Virus record (IMG/VR): IMGVR_UViG_3300028809_000070
Span: 1 to 23,144 of that record
Strand: one strand, 5' to 3'
From: a virus
Length of the DNA: 23,144 nt
Shown here in pieces: positions 3,820 to 12,591 of the stretch. The position numbers and the translations under genes were made by a program. The notes under the pieces were generated by a model. The model had not been told where the DNA came from, did no database searches, and saw nothing but the letters and a program-made list of their open reading frames with translations. The first letter of the stretch is position 1. Every line of letters starts with the position of its first letter.

Positions 3820-5641
3820 AGCGGAATGCCTCCATCTTTCCATCGCGCACGAAGCGCACTTCGGTCAAAAAGACCTGGCCGTCATCCCACTTCGTCAGCG
3901 TGATGTCGACAGGTTTCGGAATCAGCTCGCGCGACAGCAGCACGCGATAGCCCTCGCCCGGCGCCTTGCGGCCGGTGGCGCGCTCATAGAATTTCCGGGC
4001 CATCGCGTAGAACTTGTTGTCAGCGCTAGCCCGGTCGAAGTCCAGGCGCAGCGGGTGCGCGCCGAAGTCGGTGATGAATTTGAAGTTCAGCACGCCGTTG
4101 CCCTCGGGTTCGAGCAGCATGTCGTGCACGGTCAGCGTGCGCACCTGGCGACACACCTCATCGGCCAACACCACGTTCGCCTCGTCGTGGATCTCGTAGG
4201 AGTCGCCCTCGCCGATGCCGCGCTCGGCCACCTCGCGCCGCGTGCGTGCGGTCAGGAAGCCCTGGCGCGGCCGGCCGCACTGGCGGCAGGTCATGTGCTC
4301 AGCGTCGTTCAGGAAGCCGCACGCCGCGGCCTCGGGGTCCATGAGGACCAGCGCGATGCGCAGGTCATATTCGGCCTGCACGGGGTTGTTGATCGGAAAG
4401 CGGATGGCACTGCGCTCGCGGTCGGGTACCGGCGTTCCGTCCTTGCTGCCCTTCTTGAACGGCGAGCGGATCACGGCGTCCGTGCACTCCCACAAGCCAG
4501 CGCGCGAGTCACCCGAGCCGATCTCGGCATTCACTGCCCCATGCCGCACGAAGTTGCCGCCGGCGTCCAGCACCAGCACGTTCTCTTTGCCCGGATAGGG
4601 ACGCAACCCTCTACCCACGATCTGGCGCCACAGCACGAGCGAGCGCGTGGGGCGCAGGCCAACGATGCAGTCGACGAACTTCGCATTGAAACCGGTCGTG
4701 AGCATGGCCACCGACACAACGTGCCGGTGCATCTTCTTCAGGTATTCCTCGACGCCCGTCACGCGCTCGCTCTTTTCGAGTTCGCCGTGAATGGTCACAA
4801 CGGTCTCGCCGGCCTCGCGCAGAGCGCTCTCGATCATCTTCGCGTGCTCGATGTTCACCGCGAACCACATGAAGTGCTTGCGCTCGCGTGCGTTGTCCAG
4901 CGCCACGCGCACGCACTCGCGTGTGACCTTCATCGCCTCCTGGGCTAGCGCGGCCTCGTCGAAATCGCCACCCTTGGTCTTCACGTTGTCGGTGTCGATC
5001 TGCGGAAAGCGGATGGCCGGAGCTACCACGGGCGAGATGTACTCCTCGCGAATCAGCCGATTGAAGTTGCGGCCGGCAGTTAGGTCGTAAACCTTCGTGT
5101 CGAACAGGCCGCACTCGGTCAGCGGCACGACCTTCAGGCCCTTCATCTGGAACGGCGTCGCGGTCAGGGCGATGAAGCGCACTTTCGGGTTCGCCTCGCG
5201 CAAGCCGTTGACGATGGTCTTCCAGGTCTTCAGGTCGATGTTGACGCCGTGCGCCTCGTCAACGATCACATAGTCCTGCTTGCCGAAGCGCTTGACCTGG
5301 CGAAACACCGACTGCGGCGTGCCGATCGTGATCTGCGACAGGCGCTCTTTCATGCCCAGCCCGGCGCAGTAGACGCCCACACGCGCGGCCAGCGCCGTCG
5401 GCAGGTAGCCCATCGCCTCGTCGACGTTTTGCTTGACCAACTCCATCGAGGGCGCGAGGGACATGATGCGCGCACCCGGCTGGAGCTGGCACAGCGCCTC
5501 GATCAGCATCGCGTTGATGAGGGCCTTGCCGCCCGCGGTCACGATGGCCGCGATCGGGTTGGTATTCTCAGCAGCCATGAGCGCGGACAGCAGCGCGTCG
5601 CGCGCTTCGGCCTGATACCAGCGCGGTACGAGTTTAGGCAT
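3800..5641 (-). CDS. superfamily 2 DEAD/DEAH-box helicase
   Basis: A 613-residue ATP-dependent DNA helicase. Visible motifs in order are a Q-motif-like PRWYQAEARDAL (6-17), a variant Walker A TAGGKA (35-40), DEAH Walker B in VIVDEAHG (128-131) and LTATP motif III (159-163). Motif VI is QIVGRGLRPYPGK, followed by VLVLDAGGN. A CxxC pair (MTCRQCGRPRQGFL) in the C-terminal part, with a nearby Cys, may bind zinc. The Walker A lacks the usual Thr/Ser after the Lys, which may reflect a subfamily rather than loss of activity. Start is the ATG at 5641 downstream of a good promoter (5676-5704). It probably unwinds or remodels DNA during phage replication or recombination. Confidence 0.9.
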   Translation of the reverse strand: MPKLVPRWYQAEARDALLSALMAAENTNPIAAIVTAGGKALINAMLIEALCQLQPGARIMSLAPSMELVKQNVDEAMGYLPTALAARVGVYCAGLGMKERLSQITIGTPQSVFRQVKRFGKQDYVIVDEAHGVNIDLKTWKTIVNGLREANPKVRFIALTATPFQMKGLKVVPLTECGLFDTKVYDLTAGRNFNRLIREEYISPVVAPAIRFPQIDTDNVKTKGGDFDEAALAQEAMKVTRECVRVALDNARERKHFMWFAVNIEHAKMIESALREAGETVVTIHGELEKSERVTGVEEYLKKMHRHVVSVAMLTTGFNAKFVDCIVGLRPTRSLVLWRQIVGRGLRPYPGKENVLVLDAGGNFVRHGAVNAEIGSGDSRAGLWECTDAVIRSPFKKGSKDGTPVPDRERSAIRFPINNPVQAEYDLRIALVLMDPEAAACGFLNDAEHMTCRQCGRPRQGFLTARTRREVAERGIGEGDSYEIHDEANVVLADEVCRQVRTLTVHDMLLEPEGNGVLNFKFITDFGAHPLRLDFDRASADNKFYAMARKFYERATGRKAPGEGYRVLLSRELIPKPVDITLTKWDDGQVFLTEVRFVRDGKMEAFRYDPEYS

Positions 5642-5670
5642 ATTCTTTGCGATTACTTAAGAGATTGGAG

Positions 5671-5685
5671 CGCTAATTATAAGCG
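5671..5685. promoter_or_regulatory. palindrome over the helicase -10 box
   Basis: CGCTAATTATAAGCG is a 15-base near-palindrome (6 of 7 arm positions pair) centred on the TATAAT -10 of the helicase promoter. Such a position suits repressor binding, although part of the symmetry comes from the AT-rich -10 itself. Confidence 0.3.
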
Positions 5686-5704
5686 CGCCTCAGTGGCGCT
5701 GCAA
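5676..5704 (-). promoter_or_regulatory. sigma70-type promoter for the helicase gene
   Basis: The minus strand reads TTGCAG (5699-5704), 17 bases, then a perfect TATAAT (5676-5681). It lies in the 70-base gap between the metallopeptidase stop and the helicase ATG. The expected leader is about 28 bases and carries CTCTTAAG (5656-5663). Confidence 0.65.
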
Positions 5705-5711
5705 GGGCGCG

Positions 5712-6287
5712 TCAGCGCCGCTTCGCCAGTTTGTTGATGATCGACTGCACCGTGCGCTCGGGCGCCTCGGCAAGGCGCGAATACCACGGGTCGTCGAACA
5801 CCGGCACGAAGCCCATGCCGAGCAGGTCGCGGAACGTGCGCGGACGCAGCTGGTGCAGCAGGTCGGGATTGGTCACGAACAGCCGGAACATCTCGGCGAA
5901 CCATTCGCCGTCATCGGGGCAGTAGGACGTGAGCGGCGCTTCAGCACACCGCGCGCGCATCTCCAGGCTGAAGTCGCCCCGGTAGCGGTCGCGGCGGGTG
6001 CTGCGCGCCAGGTCGACGTGGTGGCCGAGCTCATGCGCGATCACGCCGTAGGGCGTGCGGTCCACGCTGTGCCCGGGGAACGACCAGGCCATGCCTGCGA
6101 CACCGATGGCCGCGCACTTCTCGACGCAGATGGTGATGCGGTCGGCTCGATAATAGGCGCACACGCCAAAGGGCCAACCGGCGGGCGGCTCTCGCTTCAC
6201 CTCTGGCACCTTCAGCCCATTCGCCTCGCAGAACGTCCACAGCAAGTCCACGCCGCGGTCATACAGCGCCTGCTTCGTCTCGTGCAT
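5712..6287 (-). CDS. HExxH zinc metallopeptidase-like protein
   Basis: A 191-residue protein with the zinc-protease signature in GVIAHELGHHVDLAR (about residues 82-96). The two His and the Glu of HELGH are present. A probable third zinc ligand is the Glu of GEWFAEMFRLFVTNP, about 45 residues later. That layout matches gluzincin-type phage 'putative metallopeptidase' proteins. There is no signal peptide, so it should act in the cytoplasm. The ATG at 6287 overlaps the previous stop by one base (TGATG), so I prefer it to the GTG at 6290. Substrate unknown: it could be a host protein or a small-domain protease used in takeover or defence evasion. Confidence 0.75.
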   Translation of the reverse strand: MHETKQALYDRGVDLLWTFCEANGLKVPEVKREPPAGWPFGVCAYYRADRITICVEKCAAIGVAGMAWSFPGHSVDRTPYGVIAHELGHHVDLARSTRRDRYRGDFSLEMRARCAEAPLTSYCPDDGEWFAEMFRLFVTNPDLLHQLRPRTFRDLLGMGFVPVFDDPWYSRLAEAPERTVQSIINKLAKRR

Positions 6288-6481
6288 CACCGTGGCACCT
6301 CGTTGTGGAAGTAGACCATCGGCTGCGGCGTCAGGTCGACCGCACGCACGCGCCAGATGCTACCGATCCAGGGCTGGCCCGGGATGAGCTCGGCGACGCG
6401 CACGCGCGGGCCGGACTCCAGGGCCAGGACGGCGCGGCCGTTCAGCTCGTAGCGGTGGCCCTGCTGGGCGGGCTTTCTCAT
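6287..6481 (-). CDS. small hypothetical protein
   Basis: The ATG at 6481 overlaps the preceding TGA by 4 bases (ATGA), which decides the start against a longer, low-quality N-terminal extension to 6577. The 64-residue product (MRKPAQQGHRYELNGRAV...) alternates polar and hydrophobic residues like a compact beta barrel: VLALESGPRVRVAELIP, then WIGSIWRVRAVDLTPQPM. It ends HNEVPR and overlaps the metallopeptidase start by one base. No family recognised. Likely translated in step with its neighbours as part of the early unit 5712-7290. Confidence 0.65.
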   Translation of the reverse strand: MRKPAQQGHRYELNGRAVLALESGPRVRVAELIPGQPWIGSIWRVRAVDLTPQPMVYFHNEVPR

Positions 6482-6675
6482 TTGCTTGCGCCTATTGCTT
6501 TCCACGCAGCCCGAGCTTGAACCAGTTGGACTTGTGCGCGCCGCATCTCGGCCTCCGCGAGTTGCAGCGCCTGCCATTGCGGAAATATGTAAGGCACAGC
6601 GCGTTTCAAGTCTCGTGTCTCTTTTCGAGCGCGCTTGACTCCTGCGGCTAGGCGCTTATGGTATGCGGCACTCAC
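6478..6675 (-). CDS. small helical (coiled-coil-like) hypothetical protein
   Basis: A GTG at 6675 overlaps the preceding gene's TGA by 4 bases (GTGA), with AGGTGG a few bases upstream. The longer frame to 6777 runs through the real upstream gene and is rejected. The 65-residue product (MSAAYHKRLAAGVKRARKET) is strongly basic at first. It then has a long Ala/Gln/Glu-rich stretch (QLAEAEMRRAQVQLVQARAA) that looks like an amphipathic helix or coiled coil. No catalytic motif. It may bind nucleic acid or a partner protein (inference). Confidence 0.6.
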   Translation of the reverse strand: MSAAYHKRLAAGVKRARKETRDLKRAVPYIFPQWQALQLAEAEMRRAQVQLVQARAAWKAIGASK

Positions 6676-6947
6676 GCGACCACCTGCGCAGGCTTCGGCA
6701 CGAACGGCCGCGTGTCCGGGTTGGCCAGGAACACCTCCTGGATGATCGCGGCCGGGTAGCCGCGCTCGGTGGGCCAATTCTTTCCCTGCACGGGAACGTC
6801 GACGAACGTAGCCCCGCGGATGCGGCAGACCATGGAGCAGTCCTTGCCCAGACGCTGCAGCAGCGGCAGGGGGACCGGTTGCGCGCAGGTGAGCCAGCGG
6901 CTAGCCTGCTCGACGGTGAAGTACGGGGTTTCGGTGGTGACGGTCAT
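6672..6947 (-). CDS. hypothetical early protein
   Basis: The ATG at 6947 (MTVTTETPYFTVEQASRWL) is preceded by a GAAGGAC ribosome site and begins 7 bases after the upstream stop. A longer frame reaching 7019 overlaps the zinc-binding gene and is not supported. The 91-residue product opens with FTVEQASRWL, an N-terminal helix pattern common in small phage proteins. It continues with a mixed domain containing two Cys (CAQ..., CSMVCRI) and ends in PFVPKPAQVVA. I do not recognise the family. It overlaps the next gene by 4 bases. Confidence 0.6.
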   Translation of the reverse strand: MTVTTETPYFTVEQASRWLTCAQPVPLPLLQRLGKDCSMVCRIRGATFVDVPVQGKNWPTERGYPAAIIQEVFLANPDTRPFVPKPAQVVA

Positions 6948-6954
6948 GGTGGTT

Positions 6955-7290
6955 TCAGTCCTTCGCGTGCTGTGCGACCCACTCGGCATTCGCCTTGCGC
7001 CAATCGGCCCAGCTTTCATCGGTCAGCTTGTGCGTAATCCATTCGGGCACGTCGGGCGTTTTCTCGAACGGCAGCGCGCCCGCTTCGCACCGCTCGCACT
7101 GGCACCCGCCGCCGTGCGCGGTGCAGAAATACAAGCCGCAGCCATCGTCACCGCCGTAGGGCTCGCCGCCGCACACGTGGCTAAGTCCGCGATCAATCTC
7201 TGCTGCACAGCCGGGATGATCGCAGCGCGCGGGGACGCCGTAGCCGATGTCGCGCTGCCAATTCGTGTCGTATCCGAGGCTCCAGCTCAT
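6955..7290 (-). CDS. cysteine-rich, probably zinc-binding phage protein
   Basis: A 111-residue protein beginning MSWSLGYDTNWQRDIGYGVP. It carries a dense set of metal ligands between residues 23 and 69: RCDHPGC, SHVCGG, GCGLYFCTAHGGGCQCERC. Cys pairs and a His are spaced as in treble-clef or zinc-ribbon folds. The remainder is acidic and Trp-rich (WITHKL, ESWADWRKANAEW). It resembles an uncharacterised protein of Burkholderiales phages, by memory rather than search. AAGGAA lies 5 bases before the ATG. It is the first gene after the strong promoter 7321-7350, so it is probably made early and in quantity. Its partner (DNA, RNA or host protein) is unknown. Confidence 0.75.
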   Translation of the reverse strand: MSWSLGYDTNWQRDIGYGVPARCDHPGCAAEIDRGLSHVCGGEPYGGDDGCGLYFCTAHGGGCQCERCEAGALPFEKTPDVPEWITHKLTDESWADWRKANAEWVAQHAKD

Positions 7291-7315
7291 TTCAATTCCT
7301 TGGTGGGTTGATGTG

Positions 7316-7333
7316 TCACGATTCTAATCGTGA
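7316..7333. promoter_or_regulatory. perfect 18-bp palindromic operator over the -10 box
   Basis: TCACGATT-CT-AATCGTGA is a perfect inverted repeat with 8-base arms and a 2-base centre. It covers the whole -10 (7321-7326) of the promoter for the 7290 gene. That is where a dimeric repressor would block RNA polymerase. Confidence 0.6.
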
Positions 7334-7350
7334 TCTTCGCAAATTGTCAA
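7321..7350 (-). promoter_or_regulatory. strong sigma70-type promoter for the 7290 operon
   Basis: A perfect TTGACA (7345-7350), 18-base spacer and TAGAAT (7321-7326) on the minus strand, about 31 bases upstream of the ATG at 7290. The -35 box overlaps the primase stop codon (7347-7349). Confidence 0.8.
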
Positions 7351-9836
7351 ACAGCTTTCTTCGCCGCGAACGGGTTCAGCTGGATCACGTCGGCGCCCTG
7401 TGACTCGCCGGGCATCTCGTAACCCTCCGGCGGCTTCCAGCCCCGAGAGTCCATCGTGCGAGCGGGTTGCCAGCCCCGGGTCTGCAGCCAGCGGGTGTAC
7501 TCGCGGGTGCGGATCATCTTGCCGCTGGGCAGCGCATCGAGCGCGATGCGAATGGCCGAGCTGGGCACGAAGCCTGTCGCGCTGTGCTGGCGCACCAGCT
7601 TGCGCAGCAGGTCGGGCAGCACGTCATCGACGTCCGACACCGGCACGCCGATGCCGTCGCGCATCTGGGCCTGGTTGAACGCGAACACCGCGTCGGCGGC
7701 GGCGCGCACCAGGCGCAGATAGGCGGCCTCGTCGTCCACGAAGCGCGCCTTGGCCTCGGCGAAGATTTGGCGCGCCTCGCCGGCCCACGACTGCTCGATG
7801 GGGCGCAGGACGTCCACGGGCATGAGGCGGCGGTTGCCCGTCTCGTCGCGGTTCATCTCGTGCTTGTTGGCCGTGCCGATGAGCGCGAAGCGGCGCGGGT
7901 GCTCGCTGGCCCGGCGCTCGTACGGCGCGCGGTACACGTCCTGGCACTCGGTCGTCCACTGCTTGATGTCCTCGACGTCGCGCTTGGCCATGCCGGACAT
8001 CTCACCCAGCTCGGCTATCGCGCTCACGCTCGCGGCCATGGTCATGCGAATCTCGTCGGCGAACTTCAGCGACGCCGGCGGCGGCACGCCCAGAGCCTTC
8101 GCGAGGTCATGCACGAAGACGCCCTTGCCCAGGCCGCCCTGACCGATCAGCACTGGCACCACGGGGCACGGCGCGCCGGGGCGGATCTGACGCATGAGCA
8201 CGCCCGAGAAGAAGAGCTGCGTCGTGAGCGTGAGCGCTTCGGAGGGCATCGCGCCGCACAGGTCGGGGAAGAAGTTGTCCAGGCGTGGCGCGGCGTCCCA
8301 CCGCGGCAGCGCGAGCACCGCGTCGCGCCAGGGGTCTACGGAGCTGCGATGCGCAAGCGTCTCGATGGCGTCCTCGATCGGCTTCTTCGACACGTTGCAG
8401 CAGCCGATGCGTGACAGTGCGTCGAGCAGGTCGCCGGTGTCGGGCACGTCGGCGCGGTCCATCACGCCCGTGCTGGCGTTGTACGACGGCATCGCGTCCA
8501 GCTCGCCGAGCAGCGTGGCCAGGCCGTGCGTGATGTTCACGAGCGGCGCGGCTTTCTTTCCGGCCGGTTCGGGGTACTCGACCAGGCCGCACAGCTTCTC
8601 GGCGGCCATCGCCAGCGGGGAATCGAGGTCGGCCGAGCGGTCATCGGTGAACTCGAAGAACTCCTGCAGCTTGTGGGACCAGACACCGGGCCGGTCGCCC
8701 ATCATGACGATCTCGGCCTTGTCGAAGTGCTTGGCGTCGAGGTCGGGGCGCCACGTGTCGAAGGGGTCGGCGCAGTTGAAGCCCAGCGAGTGCGGCAGGC
8801 TAGCGACGATCTGCTGCACGGTCTGGCGGCCGATGTCCTTCACTGCAATTTCCCACGTGGCGGGCAGCTTCTTGTCGCCCAGCGCGCGCGTGGCGATGAG
8901 GCCGTAGCGCTCGCCGATCTCGGCGTCCAGCCCGTTTGCTATGGCGTTTTCGCGCTGATAGTTGATCGCTATGCGCTTGGCCTCGCGTCGGCGGCCGTCC
9001 CGGGCCTGGCGCTTCATGGTCTCGTAGCGGCGCATGTCGATCTCGCGCAGCGGTGTGAGCAGACCCACGTCGAGCAGCCCTTCCGGCGACCGCGCGCGCA
9101 GCGGTGCGCCCTTGGGGCGCTCTGCGCGCACCAGCACACGACCGCCTTCGGGGATGCTGCGCTCGATGCCATCGGCGCACACCGGCTCGGCCTCGAACAT
9201 CAGACGCGAGGGCTGGTAGACCAGCGAGTCGGACAACTGGCGCACGAGCAGCGCGCCGGACTTCGAGATTTTCACGAAGCCGCGACCGTTGAGCCATTCT
9301 TCGGCCTGCAGGCGCACCGCGAGCGCGGGAATGTCCGTGCCGCGCGTCACCGCGAAGTAGACGTGCACGCCGCGCAACCCCTTGTCGCCGACGTAGGACG
9401 ACGACGAGGGGCGCGCCACGCGCGTGACGTGGGCCAGCCAGGGGTGACACGCCTCGAGCGCATCGAGCACGGCATCGAGCGACTGAAAGCCGCCGGTGTC
9501 GACGTCCACGTCGATCGGGCACAGCGCCGGGCCGGGCGACCAGTCGAACGTAGCGTTCGTGCGCGCGACGGCGTGCAGGTTGAAGTCGGCCCGCGCTCGC
9601 GTGGTCAGCGCCGAATCGCCAGCGCGCGGTAGGCCGCACGTGATGGCCTGATTGGGCGCTAGGCTGCGCAAAGCGCCGTCCAGGTGTGACACGTCCTCGA
9701 TGGTCAGCGCGCGCGCCGCGCCCTCTGTCATGTGGGCGATGGCGCTGCTTGTGACCCGACCGTGTTCGTCGAGGGCGAAGCGCTTTGTGAGGTCGCACGA
9801 GTGCGAGGTGATCTGTGTAAAGCGGATATCGGTCAA
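7347..9836 (-). CDS. VirE-family primase/helicase
   Basis: A large replication protein of the virulence-associated E family: an N-terminal primase-polymerase-like region followed by an SF3-like ATPase. The primase part shows PIDVDVDTGG (about residue 109), a plausible catalytic DxD, and later GLRGVHVYFAV. The ATPase part has Walker A GQGGLGKG (about 568), then AELGEMSGMAKRDVEDIKQW and GTANKHEMNRDETGNRRLMP (about 650-670), the family hallmark. It ends LNPFAAKKAV. I place the start at TTG 9836 (MTDIRFTQITSHS, 829 residues). The 52 residues encoded upstream to an ATG at 9992 look non-coding and lie in the regulatory region. No strong ribosome site supports any start, so the N-terminus is uncertain. 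Confidence 0.9.
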   Translation of the reverse strand: MTDIRFTQITSHSCDLTKRFALDEHGRVTSSAIAHMTEGAARALTIEDVSHLDGALRSLAPNQAITCGLPRAGDSALTTRARADFNLHAVARTNATFDWSPGPALCPIDVDVDTGGFQSLDAVLDALEACHPWLAHVTRVARPSSSSYVGDKGLRGVHVYFAVTRGTDIPALAVRLQAEEWLNGRGFVKISKSGALLVRQLSDSLVYQPSRLMFEAEPVCADGIERSIPEGGRVLVRAERPKGAPLRARSPEGLLDVGLLTPLREIDMRRYETMKRQARDGRRREAKRIAINYQRENAIANGLDAEIGERYGLIATRALGDKKLPATWEIAVKDIGRQTVQQIVASLPHSLGFNCADPFDTWRPDLDAKHFDKAEIVMMGDRPGVWSHKLQEFFEFTDDRSADLDSPLAMAAEKLCGLVEYPEPAGKKAAPLVNITHGLATLLGELDAMPSYNASTGVMDRADVPDTGDLLDALSRIGCCNVSKKPIEDAIETLAHRSSVDPWRDAVLALPRWDAAPRLDNFFPDLCGAMPSEALTLTTQLFFSGVLMRQIRPGAPCPVVPVLIGQGGLGKGVFVHDLAKALGVPPPASLKFADEIRMTMAASVSAIAELGEMSGMAKRDVEDIKQWTTECQDVYRAPYERRASEHPRRFALIGTANKHEMNRDETGNRRLMPVDVLRPIEQSWAGEARQIFAEAKARFVDDEAAYLRLVRAAADAVFAFNQAQMRDGIGVPVSDVDDVLPDLLRKLVRQHSATGFVPSSAIRIALDALPSGKMIRTREYTRWLQTRGWQPARTMDSRGWKPPEGYEMPGESQGADVIQLNPFAAKKAV

Positions 9837-9983
9837 GGTTCGCGGCTTTCTTTGGAGGTGTGAGCATTGTCCTACCAGTTGGCAGGATTGCGCATTGAAA
9901 AGTTCTATCGGGCGGCGCTGGTGATAGCCGTTCTGAGCTGCTCGTGGTTTGATCGATTCAAGCTGGCACGATCCTTGCTTTGA

Positions 9984-10118
9984 ATGACACATGACACAAT
10001 GACACTAGTATTTAACTTATTCTTAGAAATATAGAATCATAGTTAATCCTCTTTAAGTATGTATTTTGAGTTGGCAGATACTTATGGAAAATGGTGTCCT
10101 GTCAGTCATTGTGTCATG
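9984..10118. promoter_or_regulatory. candidate replication origin or master operator: iterons flanking AT-rich core
   Basis: Three direct copies of ATGACAC occur at 9984-9990, 9991-9997 and 9999-10005. A perfect 14-base inverted repeat pairs CATGACACAATGAC (9990-10003) with GTCATTGTGTCATG (10105-10118). The 101 bases between them have about 29 G/C, far below the surroundings, and contain TTAA- and TATA-rich stretches. Iteron-like repeats plus an easily melted block beside a primase gene is a typical phage origin layout. An operator for the two divergent units would look similar. Confidence 0.5.
10028..10056 (-). promoter_or_regulatory. candidate leftward promoter for the primase
   Basis: On the minus strand TTAAAG (10051-10056) is 17 bases from TATATT (10028-10033) within the AT-rich block. 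The -35 is weak, and AT-rich DNA yields such matches easily. A transcript would cross the ATGACAC copies before reaching the primase. Confidence 0.3.
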
Positions 10119-10138
10119 GCAAGTTAGCGGGCACTGCG

Positions 10139-10166
10139 CTACAAATCGGTTGACTGTGCTTTGTAG
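10139..10166. promoter_or_regulatory. inverted repeat flanking the rightward -35 box
   Basis: CTACAAA (10139-10145) and TTTGTAG (10160-10166) are perfect 7-base arms, with the -35 TTGACT in the 14-base gap. A third related GCGCTACA lies over the -10. This is a possible operator for the nuclease promoter. Confidence 0.35.
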
Positions 10167-10178
10167 GTGCGCTACATT
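10150..10178 (+). promoter_or_regulatory. sigma70-type promoter for the DUF2800 nuclease
   Basis: TTGACT (10150-10155), 17 bases, then TACATT (10173-10178), 34 bases before the ATG at 10212. Confidence 0.7.
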
Positions 10179-10211: not shown

Positions 10212-11399
10212 ATGTCAAATCCGCAAGTTGTGCACTCAATTCTGTCGTTCTCGGGGCGCAAGCGCTGGAAAATGTGCCCGATCAGCGTCCAAATGAGCAA
10301 AGGCATGCCCGACAGCTCCGGGCCCGCCGCGGCAGAAGGCACGCTGGCCCACCTGGTCGCCGAGCATTACGTGAAGCAGCACTTCGCGCTGCCCGGCGCA
10401 CCGGCAGCCGGTGCAGTCGCTCCAGAGCAGGTGCCCCCGCCTGACCTGGACCTGAAGGGCGTCACCATCGAGCGCTGGAACGAAACGATGCGCCACCACG
10501 GCCGCGGCTACCGGGACTTCATCAAATCGCTGATCCCCGACGGCCAGACCGGACATGTCGCCATTGAGCAGCGGGTGGCCATCGGCTCGATCTCCGATCA
10601 GCTTTTTGGCACCGCTGACTGCCTGGTGTGGCTGCACGACACGCGGCATCTGCTCGTGGTCGATTACAAGTACGGCTTCGCCGACGTGGATGTGGGCACC
10701 TACGACGAACCGAACGAGCAGCTTGCGGCCTATGCGGTGGCTGCTGCTGAAGGGATCACCGCAGGCAAGGACTGGCGTGTCGAGAAAATCACGCTCGCCG
10801 TGTACCAGCCCCGCCGCCCGCTCGCCGCACCGTCGCAGACGCTGGACCTTGACGCCGCTTGGTTGACGCTCGAGCGCGCAAAACTGACGCGCGAGGTGGC
10901 CGCCGTCGCCAACCCCGGCGCGCCGGTGCCGGGCGACCACTGCCGGTACTGCAAGGGCAAACCGAAGTGCCCGGCGCTGCACAGCTCGATGGCGACCGCC
11001 CTGGCCGCCTACGCCGGCGAGCGCAACCTGCTGGACATGCCCGAAGATGACATCGTGCAGCTGTTCGCCGCGCGCACGGCCTTCAAAGCATTCTGGGAGG
11101 ACGTCGAGGAGCGCATCGACCAGCTCGTGAAGGCCGGGCACAAAAACCTGACGGTCGACACGAGCGCGGGCAAGCGGATGTGGAAGGACAAAAAGGCCGC
11201 GACCGAGACTCTGCTGGCCATGAACCGACTCGACCTGCTGCAGCCGCTCGCACTGTCCGACGCTCTGCCGATCCTCCCGCCTGAGTTCCACGCCGAACTG
11301 GTGACGACCAGTAAGCCCTCGCGCACGATTCGCGTCGTCGAGGTGCAGTCGCCGAGCGCGATTGCCACGATGTTCAAGAATTACGCGAAAAGTGTTTGA
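10212..11399 (+). CDS. DUF2800 family RecB/Cas4-like nuclease
   Basis: A 395-residue protein starting at ATG 10212 (MSNPQVVHSILSFSGRKRW). The N-terminus HSILSFSGRKRWKMCPIS then AAAEGTLAHLVAEHYV is the DUF2800 signature, and the His of LAH is a typical PD-(D/E)xK ligand. The core gives GTADCLVWL (catalytic Asp) and LLVVDYKYG (D-x-K). Cysteines in DHCRYCKGKPKCPAL (about residues 240-255), with the early CPIS, could hold an Fe-S cluster as in AddB/Cas4 nucleases (inference). DUF2800 genes usually stand next to DUF2815 genes, as here, and probably supply exonuclease activity for phage recombination or replication. A frame extending to 10167 overlaps the promoter, so the internal ATG is used. Confidence 0.88.
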   Translation: MSNPQVVHSILSFSGRKRWKMCPISVQMSKGMPDSSGPAAAEGTLAHLVAEHYVKQHFALPGAPAAGAVAPEQVPPPDLDLKGVTIERWNETMRHHGRGYRDFIKSLIPDGQTGHVAIEQRVAIGSISDQLFGTADCLVWLHDTRHLLVVDYKYGFADVDVGTYDEPNEQLAAYAVAAAEGITAGKDWRVEKITLAVYQPRRPLAAPSQTLDLDAAWLTLERAKLTREVAAVANPGAPVPGDHCRYCKGKPKCPALHSSMATALAAYAGERNLLDMPEDDIVQLFAARTAFKAFWEDVEERIDQLVKAGHKNLTVDTSAGKRMWKDKKAATETLLAMNRLDLLQPLALSDALPILPPEFHAELVTTSKPSRTIRVVEVQSPSAIATMFKNYAKSV

Positions 11400-11485: not shown

Positions 11486-12151
11486 ATGTCTCAAAATCTG
11501 ATCGATCACGTCGCCATCCTGACCCATTCGGCACTCGCGCAGGCCGTCCCGAACAAGCTCAAGGGCGGCCGCATGGAGTTCTACGCCGTCGTGGCCTTCC
11601 CGCCGGCTGCCGGCGGTGTGCTGCACGAGCTCTGCAAGTCCACCGGTGCCATGGGCCCGGGCGTGCAGGTGGGTGTCGAAACGAACGCTTCGCGTAAGGC
11701 GCCCATCCCCGGCATCCCCGGCGATTGGTTCGTCGTGCGCGGCGCAACGCAGTTCGCCCCGTTCATTGCCGACGAAACCGGCACCCAGCTCGACCAGAGC
11801 AACCCGGACCACGCCGCGAAGATCCGTTCGCAGTTCTACGCGGGCAAGCGTGTGCGCGCTTCGTTCTCCCCCTACGCATGGAACCACGCCACGGGGGGTA
11901 AGGGCATCTCGTTCAACGTGGACGGCATCATGGCCGTCGAGGACGGCGAGCGTCTGGCGGTTGGCAACGGCGAGATGCTGAACGCCTTCGCGCAGCACGC
12001 GCAGGCCCCGGCGGCCAGCGGCGGCGCGGCCAACCCGTTTGCGGGCGCACCGGCCGCGTCGCCCGCACCCACCCCGGCACCCGCAGCCAGCGCGAACCCT
12101 TTCGCCCAAGCCCCGGCGGCCAGCGCGAACCCTTTCGCACAGGCCACCTGA
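11486..12151 (+). CDS. DUF2815 ssDNA-binding protein
   Basis: A 221-residue protein from ATG 11486. The first 165 residues form the DUF2815 domain, a predicted OB-fold single-strand DNA-binding protein similar in role to T7 gp2.5. Recognisable stretches are LKGGRMEFYAVVAFPP, PGDWFVVRGATQFAP, GKRVRASFSPYAW and GKGISFNVDGIMAVEDGERL. The last 45 residues are a flexible Ala/Pro tail with three NPFA units (ANPFAGAPAAS, ANPFAQAPAAS, ANPFAQAT). Unlike bacterial SSB the tail is not acidic. It has its own strong promoter, fitting the high amounts such proteins need. It should coat ssDNA for the polymerase, nuclease and primase encoded nearby. Confidence 0.85.
   Translation: MSQNLIDHVAILTHSALAQAVPNKLKGGRMEFYAVVAFPPAAGGVLHELCKSTGAMGPGVQVGVETNASRKAPIPGIPGDWFVVRGATQFAPFIADETGTQLDQSNPDHAAKIRSQFYAGKRVRASFSPYAWNHATGGKGISFNVDGIMAVEDGERLAVGNGEMLNAFAQHAQAPAASGGAANPFAGAPAASPAPTPAPAASANPFAQAPAASANPFAQAT
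12086..12138 (+). repeat. 33-bp spaced direct repeat in the ssb tail
   Basis: The 20 bases at 12086-12105 recur exactly at 12119-12138, giving two ANPFAQA units 11 codons apart. A third, diverged NPFA unit lies upstream near 12030. The tail appears to have grown by duplication. Confidence 0.85.
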
Positions 12152-12207: not shown

Positions 12208-12591
12208 ATGACCCCTAACCACCCTACACGGACCGTCAATCTCGTGCTCCCATGGCCGCCATCGGTCAACCGGATATGGCGCGCAGTGCTCGGGCGCATC
12301 GTCCTGGCCGAGGTGGCGCGCCGCTACGGCATCAAGTTGGCCAACGCGCTGCCGACAGGTCCCGTCGATCCGTTACGCGGCCGGCTGTTCGTGACCATGC
12401 TCATGTGCCCGCCGGCCGGGCTCAAGAATCGCCGGCACGACATCGCGAACCGCGAAAAATGCCTGTGCGACGGCCTGACGAAACAACGGGTCTGGCTCGA
12501 TGACAGCCAGATCGATATGATGCTCATCGCGCGTGGCGCGCCCTGCGACGAGGGCCGCGTCGAGATGCTGATCCAGGAGATGCCCGAATGA
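12208..12591 (+). CDS. rusA: RusA-family Holliday junction resolvase
   Basis: A 127-residue protein of normal RusA length. LVLPWPPSVNRIWR (about 12-25) is the usual N-terminal LP.PPS.N motif. RRHDIANREKCLCDGL and WLDDSQIDMM (about 72-104) supply the acidic residues that bind Mg2+: the D-x-x-N-x-x-K and D-D of the family. It cuts four-way junctions made by recombination-dependent phage replication. The ATG at 12208 stands just past the terminator T-run with no clear Shine-Dalgarno, and I see no promoter after the terminator. Translation and transcription here must rely on read-through or an unusual start. It overlaps the endolysin gene by 4 bases. Confidence 0.88.
   Translation: MTPNHPTRTVNLVLPWPPSVNRIWRAVLGRIVLAEVARRYGIKLANALPTGPVDPLRGRLFVTMLMCPPAGLKNRRHDIANREKCLCDGLTKQRVWLDDSQIDMMLIARGAPCDEGRVEMLIQEMPE

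Follow-up and report, generated by a model that had tools for sequence, protein, structure and literature searches.

A duplicated origin-like element of satellite type beside the VapE primase-helicase gene of a soil phage and its Bcep781-like relatives

The DNA analysed here (the window) is a 23,144-bp stretch from a soil phage. Within it an origin-like element separates a leftward gene for a VapE-type primase-helicase (7347–9836, minus strand; PF05272, E 1e-39) from a rightward operon. The operon encodes a DUF2800 PD-(D/E)XK exonuclease (10212–11399, plus strand; PF10926, E 2e-59; PF12705; phrog_69 exonuclease), an Enc34-type ssDNA-binding protein (11486–12151, plus strand; PF10991) and a RusA Holliday junction resolvase (12208–12591, plus strand; PF05866). 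The placement between the VapE primase-helicase and the DUF2800 genes proposed in a first-pass annotation is therefore confirmed. A candidate promoter reading rightward into the DUF2800 operon (TTGACT-17-TACATT, 10150–10178, plus strand) lies outside the element. The primase reading frame as drawn from ATG 9992 covers the iterons. Homology to the primases of relatives mostly begins some 155 bp past this ATG, near 9830, and the primase of relatives G003 and G005 has its ATG start where the window has TTG 9836. The gene thus probably starts at TTG 9836, not at ATG 9992, and the element is probably wholly intergenic.

The left iteron set (9984–10005, plus strand) consists of three copies of ATGACAC at 9984–9990, 9991–9997 and 9999–10005, all pointing toward an AT-rich core (10006–10104, 28% GC), a candidate DNA unwinding element. 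The right set (10103–10117, minus strand) is inverted and also points toward the core; it comprises a fourth exact ATGACAC at 10111–10117 and a degenerate copy, ATGACTG, at 10103–10109. Repeats in opposite orientation thus number three on the plus strand against one exact and one degenerate on the minus strand. A perfect 14-bp inverted repeat has its left arm at 9990–10003 (plus strand) and its right arm at 10105–10118 (minus strand), with 101 bp separating the arms. The three plus-strand iterons, the inverted repeat and the AT-rich core had all been described in the first-pass annotation, and each was found as placed. The inverted-repeat score of 28 compares with a mean of 14.3 and a maximum of 19 in 60 shuffles of the flanks (z 8.7), and the count of four exact 7-mers in the region was never matched in 300 shuffles. 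Rather than being scattered, all four ATGACAC copies in the window sit inside the element; 2.3 would be expected over the whole window. The GC content of the core is 0.28–0.29 against 0.66 for the window, and it holds the lowest-GC 100-bp interval of the contig (0.27; runner-up 0.44). No RNA family was found at the element site and no tRNA within the 23,144-bp window. Several phages also carry a second dyad, CTATC-N-GATAG or its reverse, between the duplicated block described below and the primase or terS gene (window 9905–9927; Bcep781 36893; Bcep1 36930; G005 11388; G006 45813 and 25246; G007 24519 and 287); it is a candidate regulator site distinct from the iterons.

The nearest solved relative of the primase is PriRep1 (7pds), a helicase of the SaPI type, matched with E 2e-23 by sequence, 1e-37 by profile and 4.5e-12 by Foldseek. 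The predicted model of the protein is of moderate confidence (pLDDT 77, pTM 0.53) and ends at its C-terminus in three helices and a beta hairpin resembling a winged helix. By analogy the VapE primase-helicase is the likely initiator of the element, a putative assignment. When iteron type was correlated with primase segments in a sliding comparison controlled for overall identity, the values were weak (at most 0.37), with too few independent phages, and no segment stood out as a specificity domain. We doubt that the C-terminal winged helix is the sole determinant of specificity; the Xanthomonas phages L038 and L039 have near-identical C-terminal domains, sharing most of the winged helix, yet their iterons differ. 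The L045 primase (5001–7483) and the G014 DUF2800 exonuclease (22029–23151) each match in two pieces, which suggests a frameshift, an insertion or a sequencing error.

The region upstream of the primase was compared among the Burkholderia Bcep781 group, Xanthomonas phages and about 30 IMG/VR loci. An AT-rich core is present in each of these sets, flanked in most cases by repeats in inverted orientation. The iterons are replicon-specific: ATGACA in the window group (ATGACAC in the window itself), ATCTGTCA in the Bcep781 group and ACAGACGA, ACTGACGA, GTACGGAG, GGTGGGA, GTTGTTAA, ACAGAGGC and others elsewhere. The design is kept across relatives although the iteron sequence changes; of the conservation in relatives that the first-pass annotation had named as a check, the architecture is there and the sequence is not. 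In 13 of 23 regions the count of the top 7-mer was matched in fewer than 5% of shuffles, two of these regions (L012 and L024) having a top 7-mer other than the inward iteron. Six more (L018, L020, L034, L043, L032 and L045) were significant only with 6- or 8-mers, and the k-mer shuffle test gave no significant iteron in L004 (PhiXhv-2), L042, L046 and L025. PhiXhv-1/2, XapPhi1 and a few further phages have weak iterons. Long inverted arms occur in L044, L037 and L038 (z 15–29), those of L044 being near-perfect over 44 bp. Since the whole-flank inverted-repeat score also responded to other repeats and overlooked some elements, the analysis drew in addition on k-mer counts and on comparison within genomes. 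As in the window, the element of close relatives is located 5′ of the primase gene. The same design is found in the unrelated phages L100 and L108, directly 3′ of VapE or of a Prim-Pol/D5 primase-helicase. Arrays of the ATGACATTATGACA type with the same design occur in a further unrelated group (L097, L101, L102, L103, L106, L111, L112 and L114), near a terminase large subunit gene where this could be checked; no primase was recognised in the fragments examined of L097, L112 and others.

Every one of the 18 full-length records examined contains two copies of the element. These records are Bcep781, eleven from IMG/VR, Bcep1, BcepNY3, XapPhi1, XapPhi3, PhiXhv-1 and phiXaf18, some of them closely related to one another (G014 and phiXaf18, for example). 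The two copies are the two lowest-GC windows of the genome in 17 of the 18, the exception being G003, and each occupies a divergent gene junction. Iterons are confined to the blocks to a large extent: Bcep781 has seven copies of ATCTGTCA at 16.2–16.4 kb, seven at 36.6–36.8 kb and one elsewhere (14/15), and the corresponding counts are 14/14 in Bcep1 and in BcepNY3, 8/8 in G002, 12/12 in G010 and 11/12 in G007, beside 4/4 in the window. Identity between the copies within a genome is mostly 90–99% over 79–431 bp; it is 82% over 517 bp in G006 and weak in G005 (80% over 64 bp). The similarity is longer, 330–517 bp, in the Bcep781 group, G006, G010 and G015. Alignment of the two copies ends near the outer iterons in G002, G011, G013 and G014, with unrelated sequence beyond. 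The ends of G003 and G007 and the record starts of XapPhi3 and phiXaf18 fall inside or at the element, probably where assembly broke at a repeat.

With 23,144 bp of an expected genome of about 47 kb in the window, a second copy was expected between the baseplate and terS genes. A pattern describing the architecture only, ATGACANNATGAC N85–115 GTCATNNTGTCAT, was run against IMG/VR and returned 22 loci; the control read backwards returned none. One of these hits gave the second copy of the window block, G022:5979–6150, between baseplate and terS on a 24,026-bp contig. It is 94.2% identical to the window over 172 bp, beyond which the two sequences diverge sharply. This alignment defines the duplicated block (left iterons, core and right iterons) as 9949–10120. 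The element of the first-pass annotation is hence real and its features correctly placed; its extent was drawn too small, and the existence of a near-identical second copy elsewhere in the genome was missed. The end of the G022 contig overlaps window bases 1–131 at 99.2%, so that the two contigs adjoin each other in a single phage or in near-identical phages. Two more contig pairs, L018/L105 and L113/L098, behave alike, each pair coming from one metagenome sample.

The window copies are 96% identical to each other, against 64–69% when compared with the elements from sister phages that have 88–90% primase identity. The L018 copies are 97% identical and the L113 copies 95%; the phages of the Bcep781 group are too close to separate identity within a phage from identity between phages. 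Copies that are alike within a phage and differ by about one third between sister phages show that the two evolve in concert.

Two gene arrangements are observed. In one, that of the window, the blocks lie at primase|exonuclease and baseplate|terS (G002, G003, G005, G006, G007 and G010); in the other, that of Bcep781, they lie at primase|baseplate and exonuclease|terS (Bcep781 and G011–G015). Inverting the exonuclease-to-baseplate segment, whose two ends coincide with the duplicated element, turns one arrangement into the other. One could thus propose that the blocks are mainly recombination sites, which rearrange the genome through this inversion, resolve it or circularise it. The inverted segment that distinguishes the lineages is exactly the one bounded by the elements, which fits such a role, as do the inverted copies in G002, G011, G012, G014 and G015 and the homogenisation of the copies, which implies recombination between them. 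The copies are direct in other genomes, however, and no inversion isomers were found between close relatives in the pairs compared. A recombinase site would not be expected to have iteron sets and a melting core, and any repeat may yield rearrangement as a by-product. We consider recombination as the main function very unlikely.

The divergent junctions also bear on the alternative given in the first-pass annotation, an operator controlling two divergent early units. With the second copy lying between late genes this alternative is weakened, and its wider form would have a phage regulator bind the inverted iterons, as operator or enhancer, and control divergent promoters at both junctions, hence four units. 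Identical copies at two divergent junctions would fit shared regulation. One weak sigma-70-like match overlaps the left iterons, and the window region has two promoter-like sites where 0.4 would be expected. Similarity between the copies in the Bcep781 group runs to the baseplate start codon, and the shared stretch can therefore include promoters. Promoter candidates in several phages nevertheless lie outside the shared block, near start codons, and the genes next to the copies include early ones (primase, exonuclease) as well as late ones (baseplate, terminase); these two observations disfavour an operator. Further, the pairing of genes at the junctions changes between lineages, an operator has no need of an AT-rich core some 100 bp long, and several phages have the separate CTATC..GATAG dyad between block and primase. 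Regulation as the role of the block therefore appears rather unlikely. A GCGTTACACT/GCGCTACACT-like box, a candidate late promoter, is often seen about 10 nt before the ATG of late genes, sometimes with TTGACG and with a spacing unlike that of sigma-70 promoters; it lies upstream of bpl51 and/or terS in Bcep781, Bcep1, G002, G006, G007, G010, G013, G014 and phiXaf18.

It is also conceivable that replication truly starts at one block, while the repeats of the other, bound by the same initiator, serve as a pac or fork-arrest site, as has been proposed for SPP1 oriR. The terS gene adjoins one copy in both arrangements, and SPP1 has two similar origins, the second of which is proposed to stall forks (PMC6316719). 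The copies here are near-identical, and their sequence gives no separation of roles; we assign this division of labour a very slim probability.

We regard it as fairly probable that the block at 9949–10120 is a replication origin of the PICI/SaPI type, present twice per genome and fired by the VapE primase-helicase. The origin proposed in the first-pass annotation is supported by comparison, namely by the design of the relatives, the confinement of the iterons and the PriRep1-type neighbour. GC skew, suggested there as a check, shows no inflection tied consistently to the elements, its extremes being 60 to 14,000 bp away. Since some lineages have these extremes close to the elements and others do not, skew is uninformative and was dropped as an origin marker. 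Origin activity, the identity of the initiator, the loading mechanism and the use of both copies are what we infer by analogy with known systems. On this model the oppositely oriented iteron sets flanking the AT-rich unwinding region would be bound by the adjacent primase-helicase, perhaps through its C-terminal winged-helix-like domain. Loaded as two hexamers facing head to head, the protein would open the core and go on to prime synthesis, after which the phage family-A polymerase and ssDNA-binding protein would take over. The copy at the baseplate/terminase junction would serve either as another origin or as an additional site for the initiator to bind, and the likeness of both copies would be maintained by recombination or gene conversion.

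The doubled element in this soil phage and its relatives points to a two-origin replication system that is so far unstudied. In the literature searched, no origin was found to be reported for Bcep781 or the Xanthomonas relatives, nor a satellite-type layout in duplicate in these phages. The layout is already known from satellites; what appears to be new, judging from that literature, is its doubled occurrence here. More tentatively, we put forward as possible that the Bcep781-like phages and their Xanthomonas relatives possess two interchangeable satellite-type origins homogenised by recombination. The iterons would change fast between sisters, making origin/initiator specificity a moving lock-and-key, and the paired origins would double as hinges of the half-genome inversion. 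If the two-origin reading is correct, satellite and phage replicons would be linked through phages that include the cultured Bcep781, Bcep1, BcepNY3 and phiXaf18, and the origins of these phages become directly testable in laboratory hosts. The design-only pattern, with its 22 loci and none in the reversed control, would then be a search tool for phage origins.

The alpha protein of satellite P4 combines primase and helicase in one polypeptide and is paired with its own cis sites. This protein and its cis site are named in a study of Gram-negative PICIs, the origins of which always have two iteron sets around an AT-rich region; a rep-ori unit from a PICI drives plasmid replication (PMC6092414). 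The opposed orientation of SaPI origin repeats is described as guiding a head-to-head pair of helicase hexamers (PMC9894130). The element described here resembles both in its opposed sets of replicon-specific iterons around an AT-rich melting region (PMC6092414, PMC9894130) and in having a VapE/PriRep-type helicase next door (PriRep1 being 7pds), with a cognate role that is putative here. It differs in position, the origin being immediately 3′ of the rep gene in those systems and 5′ of the primase in the window and its close relatives, and in setting, since here full-size phages have two like copies per genome at divergent junctions. SPP1, with oriL and oriR (PMC6316719), offers a possible parallel, a double origin with like repeats and AT-rich regions in one genome; one of its origins lies within gene 38, and initiation there employs the origin-binding protein gp38, a loader and a DnaB-type helicase. 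The phages studied here have one primase-helicase as candidate initiator, and every full-length relative has two like elements, with origin function putative for both.
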